DNA of 64,000 nucleotides from Streptomyces sp. NBC_01465 (GTDB lineage: Bacteria > Actinomycetota > Actinomycetes > Streptomycetales > Streptomycetaceae): NCBI RefSeq assembly GCF_036227325.1, contig NZ_CP109467.1, positions 4,092,001 to 4,156,000 of the forward strand. The letters run 5' to 3'. Both the position numbers and the translations under genes were made by a program. Below the pieces are notes generated by a model. That model did no database searches. It had not been told where the DNA came from and worked only from the letters and a program-made list of their open reading frames with translations. Of this stretch, positions 17,299 to 58,152 are shown piece by piece; the first letter of the stretch is position 1, and every line of letters begins with the position of its first letter.

Positions 17299-17346
17299 CC
17301 CTGTTCCACACGCCGTACCTGTTCCACATCCCGGCCGCTTCCCCTA

Positions 17347-21333: not shown

Positions 21334-21360
21334 TGTGGACAACCCTCCGGATGTGGACAA
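21334..21360 (-). promoter_or_regulatory. Two perfect DnaA boxes in the DUF2252-MarR promoter region
   Basis: TGTGGACAA occurs at 21334-21342 and again at 21352-21360, same orientation, 18 bp start to start. Both match the Streptomyces consensus exactly. Confidence 0.65.
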
Positions 21361-35219: not shown

Positions 35220-35271
35220 TTATCCACACCGTAATCCACAGCCGGGGAAAACTCAGAAGATCTGTGGATAA
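35220..35271. promoter_or_regulatory. DnaA-box cluster between crgA and the rhomboid gene
   Basis: TTATCCACA (35220-35228, perfect classical consensus), TAATCCACA (35232-35240, one mismatch) and TGTGGATAA (35263-35271, perfect, opposite orientation). The region lies downstream of two convergent genes, so these are not promoter elements. Confidence 0.65.
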
Positions 35272-35410
35272 CTCCTCAGCCGTTGACGCCGGTGTGACTA
35301 CTGGACTCGTACCACAGCAGCTGCCCGCCCCTTGCCCTCCCTGCGGAAACCCAGGTCAGGGACAAGGGGCACAGTTGTTCCCCACGACATGCACAAGATC
35401 CGGCACGCGC

Positions 35411-35419
35411 TGTGGACAA
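35411..35419 (-). promoter_or_regulatory. Perfect Streptomyces-type DnaA box
   Basis: TGTGGACAA, nine bases from the rhomboid stop codon, in the same convergent gap as the 35220-35271 cluster. Confidence 0.6.
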
Positions 35420-50246: not shown

Positions 50247-51377
50247 TCAGCCGCTCAGACGTACCGGCATGATCAGGTACTTGTACGCGTCGTCCGCCTC
50301 GGCATCCACGGCAGGCCGCCCGCTGAGGAGCGCCGGCTTCGTCGATGTCGTGAAGGACAGCTGGGCGACCGGGGAGTCGATCGCGCTGAGCCCGTCCAGC
50401 AGGAACGTCGGGTTGAAGGCGATCGAGATGTCGTCGCCCTCGAGCTTGCAGTCGACCCGCTCCACAGCCTGTGCATCGTCGCTGGAACCGGCTTCGAGGA
50501 TCAGCACGCCCTGCTCGAAGCTGAGCCGCACCGGAGTGTTCCGCTCGGCCACCAGGGACACACGCTTGACGGCCTCGACGAACGGAGCGGTCTCGATGAC
50601 GGCGATCGAATTGAACTCCGTCGGGAAGAGCGTCCGGTACTTCGGCAGGTCGCCCTCGAGGAGACGGGTGGTCGTACGCCGCCCGGCACCCTCGAAACCG
50701 ATCAGGCCCTCACCCGCACCGGAGCCCGAGAGCGCAATGGTGACGGTGTCGCCACTGGTCAGCGACTTGGCGGTGTCCAGGAGCGTCTTGGCGGGCACCA
50801 GGGCGACCGCGGAAGCATCCGGGTTCTCCGGCTTCCACAGGAACTCGCGGACCGCGAAGCGGTAGCGGTCGGTGGAGGCCAGGGTGACCGTGTCGCCCTC
50901 GATCTCGATACGCACACCGGTCAGGACCGGCAGTGTGTCGTCGCGGCCGGCGGCGATCGCCACCTGGGCGGCGGCGGACGCGAAGACCTCACCAGGAACA
51001 GTGCCCGTGGCGGTCGGCATCTGCGGCAGCGCCGGGTACTCCTCCACAGGCAGGGTGTGGAGTGTGAATCGCGAGGATCCGCAGACCACGGTCGCCCGTA
51101 CACCGTCTGTGGAAATCTCCACCGGACGGTTCGGAAGTGCACGGCAGATGTCGGCGAGCAGCCGCCCCGAAACCAGGACCGTGCCGTCCTCCTCGATCTC
51201 TGCGTCGACCGATACCCGTGCCGAGACCTCGTAGTCGAAGCCGGAGAGGCTGAGGGAGCCCTCCTCCGCCTTCAGCAGAAGGCCCGCGAGAACGGGCACC
51301 GGCGGACGTGCCGGGAGGCTGCGTGCCGTCCAGGCCACCGCCTCGGCGAGTACATCGCGCTCCACCCGGATCTTCAC
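50247..51377 (-). CDS. dnaN: DNA polymerase III beta clamp
   Basis: A 376-residue sliding clamp with three clamp domains. The first is K-I-R-V-E-R-D-V-L-A-E-A-V-A-W, and the C-terminus ends Y-L-I-M-P-V-R-L, the standard clamp tail. It lies directly leftward of oriC, transcribed away from it. ATG 51377 faces the AT-richer end of oriC, with AAGGCGG-type ribosome-binding bases upstream. Confidence 0.98.
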   Translation of the reverse strand: MKIRVERDVLAEAVAWTARSLPARPPVPVLAGLLLKAEEGSLSLSGFDYEVSARVSVDAEIEEDGTVLVSGRLLADICRALPNRPVEISTDGVRATVVCGSSRFTLHTLPVEEYPALPQMPTATGTVPGEVFASAAAQVAIAAGRDDTLPVLTGVRIEIEGDTVTLASTDRYRFAVREFLWKPENPDASAVALVPAKTLLDTAKSLTSGDTVTIALSGSGAGEGLIGFEGAGRRTTTRLLEGDLPKYRTLFPTEFNSIAVIETAPFVEAVKRVSLVAERNTPVRLSFEQGVLILEAGSSDDAQAVERVDCKLEGDDISIAFNPTFLLDGLSAIDSPVAQLSFTTSTKPALLSGRPAVDAEADDAYKYLIMPVRLSG

Positions 51378-51571
51378 CGGAACCGCCTCCTGCTGTTGCT
51401 CGCTCGCCCTGCTGGCCTCGTCGTCGGCTTGTTGCCGGGGAACAGTCTGACAGCCGCCACCGACACTCGGTGCGAGTCGGGGTCAAGTCGCGACAAGAGG
51501 CCAGGGAGGCTCCGGCGCCGAGTTGTGCACAGGCCCCACTTCGAAGCGAAATTCCAGCTAACTCTAGGGGG

Positions 51572-51583
51572 TAGTAGTAGTAG
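51572..51583 (+). other. Candidate DnaA-trio unwinding element in oriC
   Basis: Four tandem TAG triplets, followed by GGCC and then a DnaA-box-like TGTGGAAAC (51588-51596); one more TAG lies at 51565. This order (TAG repeats, short GC-rich step, TGTGGA box on the same strand) matches the DnaA-trio basal unwinding element described for Bacillus, where 3'-GAT-5' triplets lie beyond a GC-rich step from a DnaA box. The left flank is the least GC-rich part of the origin. Confidence 0.6.
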
Positions 51584-52133
51584 GGCCTGTGGAAACGGTG
51601 GAAAACCTCGTTTTCGCAGGTCAGACCTACTTTTTTGTCCACTGCGCCTGTGGGCGGAGCCGGTGGAAAACCCAGCTGTTCTGTGGACATCGAAAAGTTC
51701 TGCACACCCGATGCACAGGACAGGGGTACTTCTCCCCAGCGCTGTCCCCAGCTTTACCCACGTTCCCCACAGCCCAACCGACCTCCTTGGTGTGACGGCT
51801 TTCACTCGACCCAGTGACCTCGGGCGTTTCGTTGCCGAACAGTGGACAAGGGTGTGGAGAAGTTGGGGACAAGACAGCTCAGCCTGTGGGCCGTCGGTGG
51901 ACAACTCGTCCACGCCCCTGTGGATGAAATTTCTGTCCACAGTCTGTGGAGTTCGGTTGACCACAAATCCACAGGCCTCTGACCAGGTGTGATGAAGTCT
52001 CAGCAACCGCCCCTGTGGACACAATCTGGACAACTCGGTAGTCCCCAGGGTGTGGACGACGTCCAGCCCCAAGATCTGTGGAGAACACTCTCGCGCGTCC
52101 GCGTATTCGAACAGAGGTGGGTCCCGGAACGCC

Positions 52134-52170
52134 GAAGGGCGCCCGGGGAGTTCGTCCCCGGGCGCCCTTC
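52134..52170 (-). terminator. dnaA terminator
   Basis: Perfect 16-bp stem (52134-52149 with 52155-52170, core GGGCGCCCGGGGA), loop GTTCG, 34 bp past the dnaA stop codon. Confidence 0.92.
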
Positions 52171-52203
52171 GAGAGCCCGTACGGCCCCCTGAAAGCTGCT
52201 GTG

Positions 52204-54021
52204 TCAGCCGTTCTTGATGCGGTTGGTGAGCTCGGTGACCTGGTTGTAGATGGACCGGCGCTCGGCCATCAGCGCCCTGATCTTCCGGTCCGCGTGCATC
52301 ACGGTCGTATGGTCGCGACCGCCGAACTGCGCCCCGATCTTGGGCAGTGACAGATCCGTGAGCTCACGGCAGAGGTACATCGCGATCTGCCGGGCCGTCA
52401 CCAGCACGCGGCTGCGCGAGGATCCGCAGAGGTCCTCCACCGTCAGCCCGAAGTAGTCGGCCGTGGCCGCCATGATGGCGCTCGCGGTGATCTCGGGCGC
52501 CGAGTCCTCGCCACCGGGGATCAGGTCCTTCAGCACGATCTCGGTGAGACCGAGATCCACCGGCTGCCGGTTGAGCGACGCGAACGCCGTCACCCGGATC
52601 AGCGCCCCCTCCAGCTCGCGGATGTTGCGCGAGATGCGGGAGGCGATGAACTCCAGTACCTCCGGCGGGGCGTTGAGCTGTTCCTGCACGGCCTTCTTAC
52701 GAAGGATCGCGATCCGCGTCTCCAGCTCCGGCGGCTGTACGTCGGTCGTCAGACCCCACTCGAAGCGGTTGCGCAGCCGGTCCTCCAGCGTCACCAGCTG
52801 CTTGGGCGGCCGGTCGGAGGAGAGCACGATCTGCTTGTTGGCGTTGTGCAGCGTATTGAAGGTGTGGAAGAACTCCTCCTGCGTCGACTCCTTGCTCGCG
52901 AGGAACTGGATGTCGTCGACGAGCAGGATGTCCACGTCGCGGTAGCGCTTGCGGAAGGTGTCGCCCTTGCCGTCGCGGATGGAGTTGATGAACTCGTTGG
53001 TGAACTCCTCGGAGCTCACGTAGCGCACCCGGGTGCCCGGGTAGAGGCTGCGCGCGTAGTGCCCGATGGCATGCAGCAGGTGGGTCTTGCCGAGCCCCGA
53101 CTCCCCGTAGATGAAGAGAGGGTTGTACGCCTTCGCCGGCGCCTCGGCGACGGCCACCGCGGCGGCGTGCGCGAAGCGGTTGGACGCGCCGATGACGAAG
53201 GTGTCGAAGAGGTACTTCGGATTGAGCCTGGCATGCGGCTCGCCGGGTCCCGCGGCGGGCGCGGGCTGCGCTGCCAGCGGACCCGGCCGTCCGCCACCGG
53301 ACGGCATCGGGGAGCCGGGACCGCCGCCGTGGCGCGGGCCCTGATGCTCCTGGTCGTCGCGGTGGTCACGGTGGCTCCCGGGACCGCGGTGCTCCGGCTG
53401 CTGCTGTTCGTACTGCTGTCGCTCTGGCTGCTGCCGGTAGTCGTGCTGGGGCTGCTGCGACGGGTGCTGCCTGGGGGGCGCGTACGGCTCGCGCCACTGT
53501 TCCTGCGAGGGCTCGCGGTCCTGGAACCCGCCGAGGCGCTGCTGCTGCCAGGAGAGATCCTCCTGGGTGCGCGGCCAGGCGCCGGGGTCGGGGCGCTGCT
53601 GCTGGTAGTCCGGGTAGGCGGGCCGTGCCGTCGGCATTCCGTCGTCGGCGGGCCTGCGCCCGTAGTCCTCGTAGGTGTCGATGTGGCGCGGCTCGTCGAG
53701 CTGCGGGGGTGACGGGTAGTGCTGCTGTACGGGCGGAGCGGGGTCGCCGATCGTGTCGTCGACGGTGATCGCGATCCGGGTCGGGCGGCCGCACTCGAGC
53801 GTCAGCATCTCGTTGATGAGCGGGGCGAGCCGGCCCTCGAGAACCTGCTTCCCGTATTCATTCGGGACGGCGAGGAGAGCGGTGTTGTTGATCAGAACAA
53901 GCGGCTGGCACCGTTCGATCCACTGCTTGTCCTTCGGCGCGATGTTTTGCTGGCCCTCGCCGAGGAGATGCTCGAGCACGCGTGGCCACACTGCGGCAAG
54001 ATCGGCAGGTACGTCAGCCAC
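52204..54021 (-). CDS. dnaA: Chromosomal replication initiator DnaA
   Basis: A 605-residue initiator. Domain I (1-90), an expanded disordered domain II (about 95-270) rich in Gln, Pro, His and Arg, domain III AAA+ with Walker [10 protein letters not shown] and Walker [10 protein letters not shown], and domain IV with S-R-S-R-V-L and the DNA-contact signature [11 protein letters not shown] long domain II is typical of Streptomyces. Start set at GTG 54021 ([11 protein letters not shown]); an ATG 75 bases upstream has no homology support. Confidence 0.97.
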
Positions 54022-54368
54022 AGGGCACGCTCTCTCGAAGGTCCCACGAATGTGTGGTTCTCGGGACGGGGTGTGAAGGCAGGCAAGTTCAGCCACGGTA
54101 GTCGCGGCGGCTGATGACGTTCAAGTTGTTGTCCACAGGCTGGGGACAGTGGACCCCGGCGAGGGTCTGGTTTGACCGGATGGCGTAGCCGCGCGTACCG
54201 TAACCAGGTCGAGTTGTCGATGGCTGCTGCCGCCTGCCTCCGATGGGCAAAGATCGCGATCTTGTTGATCGTGTAGCGGTGCACACGGGCGTATACGAGT
54301 TCCTCGTGGGCGCACGGTGACAGCCAGGCGATGTCCCGCCACCACCGATTCATTTCTGGAGCCCCCGA
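54022..54368. promoter_or_regulatory. Divergent dnaA-rpmH promoter region
   Basis: 347 bp without a gene. It carries the dnaA promoter (leftward) and the rpmH promoter (rightward) and one perfect DnaA box at 54130-54138. Individual -10/-35 hexamers are not clear by eye. Confidence 0.7.
54130..54138 (+). promoter_or_regulatory. Perfect DnaA box upstream of dnaA
   Basis: TTGTCCACA, about 110 bp before the dnaA start codon, in the right place for autorepression. A TGGGGACAG stretch follows at 54141. Confidence 0.75.
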
Positions 54369-58089: not shown

Positions 58090-58098
58090 TTGTCCACA
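58090..58098 (+). promoter_or_regulatory. Perfect DnaA box in the parA leader
   Basis: TTGTCCACA; a one-mismatch TCATCCACA follows at 58108-58116. The pair lies about 55 bp before the chosen parA start. Confidence 0.65.
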
Positions 58099-58152
58099 AA
58101 GGTGGATTCATCCACAGAAGAACATGCCTCGCTGGTTCACAACCCCGAAAGC

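Follow-up and report, generated by a model that had tools for sequence, protein, structure and literature searches.

The dnaA-dnaN interval

The window considered here, i.e. the whole 64-kb stretch of DNA that was analyzed, comes from a genome of 9.14 Mb in a single contig, and carries the genes for the sliding clamp and the replication initiator on either side of an 826-bp interval that contains the oriC boxes. The features of this region are the following:

50247-51377, minus strand: dnaN (sliding clamp), an open reading frame with homologues in named Streptomyces records (91-99% identity)
51572-51583, plus strand: DnaA-trio run, TAG x 4, from sequence (trio #1, which adjoins the spacer, at 51581-51583; #2 at 51578-51580; #3 at 51575-51577; #4 at 51572-51574)
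51584-51587, plus strand: GC-rich 4-nt spacer, GGCC, from sequence
51588-51596, plus strand: DnaA box 1, TGTGGAAAC, two mismatches to TGTGGATAA
51597-51605, plus strand: DnaA box 2, GGTGGAAAA, no gap to box 1, same orientation, two mismatches to TGTGGATAA
51841-52085, no strand given: main DnaA-box cluster, in the dnaA-proximal part of oriC, from sequence and boxes
52204-54096, minus strand: dnaA (initiator), an open reading frame whose true start codon may be internal

An earlier note on this DNA had drawn attention to a TAG run, a GGCC step and the box TGTGGAAAC, all of which are indeed present on the plus strand at 51572-51596. Its count of five TAG triplets holds for the four tandem ones; the additional TAG at 51565-51567 is poorly conserved and, since it starts 7 nt before the run, lies out of the 3-nt register, and was rejected as a fifth trio. 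The note listed a single box, which corresponds to box 1, and overlooked the second box that abuts it at 51597-51605. Both boxes of the window differ at two positions from the E. coli-type box, and the genus consensus of box 2 is CGTGGATAA.

The 64-kb window has a single copy of the pattern TAGTAGTAGN4TGTGG, which did not occur in any of 100 dinucleotide shuffles, and the same counts are obtained for four TAG triplets with at most one mismatch, while the exact 25-mer has a single occurrence in the 9.14-Mb genome. A chance origin of the trio-spacer-box pattern is thus excluded.

Conservation in Streptomyces and its family

The pattern TAGTAGTAG-N4-TGTGG has an exact match, at any place in the genome, in 392/392 Streptomyces genomes, and its reversed control in 35 of the 392, as counted from the matches listed. 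An extended pattern of 27 bp, which also takes in box 1 and the core of box 2, is present in 379/392 genomes, at one place in each matching genome and with no control match, as read from the listing. The genus-wide conservation test proposed in the earlier note was performed on 79 usable Streptomyces dnaA-dnaN intervals (the window and 78 of 80 named loci, two having been dropped for lack of dnaA), all of which carry three or four TAG triplets, a 4-nt spacer and a box. The element passes this test, and contains the most conserved 25 bp of the whole interval: the best window of the alignment starts at 51575, with a tie through 51578, and has a mean top-base frequency of 0.96, as compared to 0.77 for the entire interval and 0.93 for the next region, at 51832. 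Another well conserved block of this alignment, GAGTTGTGCACAGGCCCCACTTCGAA, lies at 51521-51546, between the trios and dnaN.

At the level of the family, 124 intervals from 17 genera were compared, including the 79 above, additional Streptomyces intervals, and 35 loci that belong to 16 genera other than Streptomyces (36 genomes of other genera were found, one of which, with a dnaN fragment only, was left out). TA[AG] x 3-N4-TGTGG is present exactly once in each of the 124 intervals, trios #1-3 reading TAG-TAG-TAG in 110 and TAG-TAA-TAG in 14. The TGTGG core of box 1, itself part of the search pattern, is found in all 124; box 2, which lies outside the search pattern, abuts box 1 in 124/124, with one or two mismatches to TGTGGATAA. 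The fourth triplet is more variable, its central base being A in 68 intervals, C in 43, G in 13 and T in none. The spacer measures 4 nt in every one of the 124 intervals and has nine different sequences, always with G as the first base; a length that is kept constant while the sequence drifts is what would be predicted from a constraint on protein spacing.

Relationship to known unwinding systems

In the Basal Unwinding System (BUS), a single DnaA box or two of them are separated by a short GC-rich gap from three or more trios, all of which lie on one strand (PMC8287927; PMC6669920). The rules that define it involve at least three consecutive trios with a central A and the consensus 3'-GAT-5', a spacer of 4 bp on average and at most 16 bp, and one box or a tandem pair, with up to two and up to four mismatches, respectively, in a fixed orientation to the trios (PMC8287927). 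The window element follows these rules for trios, spacer and boxes, and the DnaA encoded in the window carries the base-capture residues and the arginine finger. The Bacillus-like arrangement that had been suggested for this site is borne out: order, orientation, spacer and tandem boxes agree with these rules (PMC8287927), and by its sequence the element is a Basal Unwinding System.

As in the B. subtilis BUS, which involves DnaA-boxes #6/#7, tandem boxes of the same orientation are followed by a GC step and at least three same-strand trios, adjoining dnaA, and the DnaA residues for trio capture are kept. The two systems also differ: the window host is GC-rich and its element is a predicted one; three to four clean trios are present, in contrast to six in the Bacillus structure; and relatives of the window harbor C-centred trios, unlike the B. 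subtilis BUS. In addition, the Streptomyces chromosome is linear, unlike that of Bacillus.

A comparable run of TAG/TAA triplets adjoins DnaA boxes in oriC2 of Clostridioides difficile, where the trio was predicted by hand and P1-nuclease data place unwinding in the same region; this organism differs from the window host in being an AT-rich Firmicute with a bipartite origin (PMC7561715). An actinobacterial parallel is that of Kocuria rhizophila, in whose oriC, also situated between dnaA and dnaN, DnaA-trios have been annotated along with an unwinding element and two arrays of boxes; this is an annotation only, of one strain (PMC12500396). Trios are also predicted routinely by Ori-Finder 2022 (PMC10225481). 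For an origin of the same type as that of the window, a Streptomyces oriC, two putative unwinding elements have been described (Plachetka et al., 2019; mentioned in PMC9099993), and these may include the place of the trios.

No description of a Streptomyces trio or of a natural C-centred trio came up in the literature search, which covered passages of a limited number of papers; since Streptomyces may be listed in the supplementary tables of PMC8287927, the window element is either a new or an already computationally predicted example of a BUS. The class-wide C-centred form of the trio, described below, is considered as new. In either case, the element provides one 34-bp site at which the opening of a GC-rich Streptomyces chromosome becomes testable.

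An A-or-C triplet pattern in other actinomycete families

Outside the family, sites were located by the tandem box pair alone, and the family and genus labels of the compared loci are those of the tool employed, and not taxa. Seven loci without dnaA or dnaN in the DNA examined were left out of the comparisons. In a first set of 62 intervals, TCG and TCA triplets were found at the equivalent place in other families of the class. A second set comprised 60 loci, hand-picked among the matches listed, mostly for new genera, and not a random draw; since it shares families and some genera with the first, the two are separate samples and not independent lineages. With a spacer of 4, 125 of the 180 triplets #1-3 of the second set fit T[AC][AG], versus 0, 1, 0, 2, 0, 4, 0 and 7 of 180 at eight out-of-phase offsets; in-phase shifts gave 87, 110 and 101 of 180, as expected of a repeat.

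When both sets were pooled, a site could be located in 119 of 122 intervals (29 families, 76 genera), the remaining three having no box pair. At spacer 4, 344 of 595 triplets #1-5 fit T-[A/C]-[G/A], versus 4-34 of 595 out of phase, and with one locus per family the figures were 92/145 versus 3-9/145. Control counts were 17/520 for the best minus-strand box pairs and 37/555 for the next-best plus-strand pairs. A strict pattern of three triplets and a box pair was recognized outside the Streptomyces family in 47/122 loci and 11/29 families, and in 0/122 for both the minus strand and reversed triplets. The pattern has faded by the sixth triplet, many arrays outside the family are imperfect, and some of the sites have probably been mislocated where boxes are weak, as in family f4. 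Beyond the trios, a recurrent A+T-rich motif resembling AGATA or GATAA was seen in triplet slots 7-8 upstream of the spacer, for example at L203, L204, L213 and L216; it might be where the melted stretch begins, or else belong to a dnaN promoter.

Three consecutive triplets with a central A, as defined for the BUS, do not extend class-wide outside the family: three NAN triplets at spacer 4 are found in 20/76 genera, and at least three of four triplets reading T[AC][AG] in 52/76, with up to five consecutive TCG at one locus (L210). Taking one locus per genus, the central base of trios #2-5 of the form TN[AG] is C in 96 cases, A in 71, G in 14 and T in 7, while in the remainder of the first 600 nt of these sequences the counts are C 1250, G 1251, T 690 and A 294. 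C outnumbers G in 20 families, is lower in one and ties in five, and A+C exceeds G+T in 25/26; the second set on its own gives A 48, C 56, G 6 and T 2. Fisher tests on the central base are extreme but ignore relatedness. The share of C-centred trios follows interval GC only weakly (r = 0.19, n = 76 loci).

What A and C have in common is an exocyclic amine. In B. subtilis, replacement of the central A by C keeps strand separation, with growth and initiation better than with G or T, and it is through adenine's amine, shared by C, that the engineered base works (PMC10721633). These engineered trios have a natural counterpart in the C-centred trios of many actinomycete families; the same authors considered that DnaA homologues might recognize a variety of sequences (PMC10721633), and trios lacking a middle adenine had been suspected earlier (PMC8287927).

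The protein side of this recognition was also compared. In the B. subtilis structure, Asn187, Ile190, Ile193, Arg202 and Glu228 hold the trio bases, and Lys222 and Glu223 the fork (PMC10721633). The window DnaA aligns without gaps through the trio-capture region to chain 8btg_A, whose residues agree with the numbering of PMC10721633. Nine of ten checked residues, including the arginine finger, are identical to those of this chain, which is presumably B. subtilis DnaA (E183, N187, I190, I193, R202, K222, E223, E228 and R264), residue 196 being Gly in place of Asn196. At every one of the 110 readable loci the equivalent of Asn187 is Asn; 99 of these are from outside the family, in 28 families, and the 110 include all 38 loci whose site has at least two TC[AG] trios. 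Other positions are less uniform: at the equivalent of residue 202, whose contact in Bacillus is the trio guanine, R is found in 48, Q in 48, K in 20 and N in one of the readable loci, and the equivalent of residue 223 is mixed across the class. A coupling of R, Q or K at residue 202 to the identity of the third base of the trio, A or G, was considered and rejected, there being no clean split.

Since the amine of the middle base is what Asn187 contacts, C could be usable in actinomycete origins where Bacillus uses A. On balance it seems fairly likely that actinomycete DnaA reads a general amino-base code, T-[A/C]-[G/A], and that C-centred trios, as opposed to AT-rich DNA, are where many high-GC origins open. 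If so, opening would depend on the capture of nucleobases and on an exact 4-nt register, and not on low duplex stability, and searches based on a central A would miss most of the origins with C-centred trios. For actinomycetes, the central-adenine rule used by published origin-search programs appears to be too narrow. The occurrence of either A or C in natural trios, in turn, offers evolutionary support for the base-capture mechanism derived from the B. subtilis structure, and allows a prediction as to which origins should open without AT-rich DNA.

A potential mechanism for origin opening

The reading that is held here with good, if not complete, confidence is that 51572-51605 is the Basal Unwinding System of this origin, as part of a class-wide set of T-[A/C]-[G/A] elements. 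DnaA-ATP would bind to the two abutting boxes at 51588-51605, from which a DnaA oligomer could load across the 4-nt GC step onto the plus strand. Neighboring DnaA molecules would then capture two bases per triplet, the G followed by the A of 3'-GAT-5', the middle base offering the exocyclic amine contacted by Asn187 in B. subtilis; the captured plus strand would be kept from its partner, and the duplex would open toward dnaN.

Two stretches of the interval are of relevance to the site of melting:

51544-51583, no strand given: candidate first-melting stretch, which includes the trios (weakest 40 bp by nearest-neighbor calculation, third in the superhelical model)
51601-51640, no strand given: rival weak stretch on the box side, which contains TTTTTT (second weakest 40-bp window, superhelical peak at 51632)

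The element could conceivably serve as a conserved DnaA loading or regulatory site, with melting starting elsewhere, at 51601-51640 or around 51930, and the trios acting only to extend or steady the open complex. The superhelical model speaks for this reading, since in the window it gives comparable peaks at 51632 and 51930, both above that at 51560, and in only 29/76 orthologues does the peak fall between -25 and +24 nt relative to the trios; this model is a one-run approximation with assumed constants, and its result is mixed. The two putative unwinding elements described for a Streptomyces oriC also favor it (PMC9099993). By contrast, in nearest-neighbor calculations the weakest windows of the interval are 51544-51583 (40 bp), 51549-51608 (60 bp) and 51537-51636 (100 bp), and the weakest 40-bp window starts within -40 to +19 nt of the trios in 115/124 family intervals; in addition, the published BUS places opening at the trios. 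Both of the Streptomyces unwinding elements reportedly melt in vitro, with only one confirmed in vivo. Since 51601-51640 begins inside box 2, melting there and melting at the trios may overlap, and a start elsewhere is judged to be unlikely, yet it is the most serious of the alternatives. The box-side 60 bp are richer in AT than the trio-side 60 bp in only 5/124 family intervals, and the skew toward the trio side is the geometry expected from Bacillus. The description of this region as the least GC-rich end of oriC thus holds for the nearest-neighbor windows, but the simple superhelical model does not single it out. As the two models disagree, we infer, and do not observe, melting at the trio site, which would make the element the mark of the opening site of this origin.

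A second possibility is that the TAG run belongs to a minus-strand dnaN promoter, or is a site for another regulator, and merely lies beside the DnaA boxes. Its position 167-286 nt upstream of dnaN across the family and a minus-strand TAGAGT-like hexamer at 51562-51567 in the window would agree with this, but the hexamer varies between species, and a scan of 51300-52250 for sigma-70-like sites, the only type covered, found none. Among other regulators, AdpA is known to bind in S. coelicolor to the 5' part of oriC, close to weak DnaA boxes (PMC3411110). A scan of the 79 Streptomyces intervals, S. coelicolor not being among them by name, for TGGCSNGWWY with at most one mismatch gave no grounds for a link between AdpA and the trios: the bins listed, all with eight hits or more, are found between +125 and +174 nt and between +350 and +524 nt from the trios, and none at the trios. 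With triplet register and spacing tied to the boxes class-wide, and a central base that follows the DnaA amine rule, a promoter or regulator site is very improbable. Lastly, tandem identical triplets and the TCG-rich arrays of some families could evoke a microsatellite or a coding by-product, such as a triplet repeat or the terminal part of a reading frame, that plays no role in the origin. This idea is scarcely credible, given that in every family interval the distance between the three trios and the boxes is the same, that the trio frame has stops (TAG and TAA on the plus strand, and TGA on the minus strand where TCA occurs), and that the controls (other strand, other box pairs, reversed triplets) are flat or zero.

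DnaA boxes outside the origin

Further DnaA boxes are present in the window. Four of them, two facing inward and two outward, are located at 35220-35419, between a crgA-like gene and a minus-strand open reading frame, 16 kb from oriC. This stretch, including the gene end, has a match in 41/41 genomes of the genus, some of them partial, and the four-box cluster is found at similar spacing in 7 of 12 anchorable loci, the window included; it may titrate DnaA. Close pairs of DnaA-box-like 9-mers also lie outside oriC at 17302-17328, 21334-21360 and 58090-58116.
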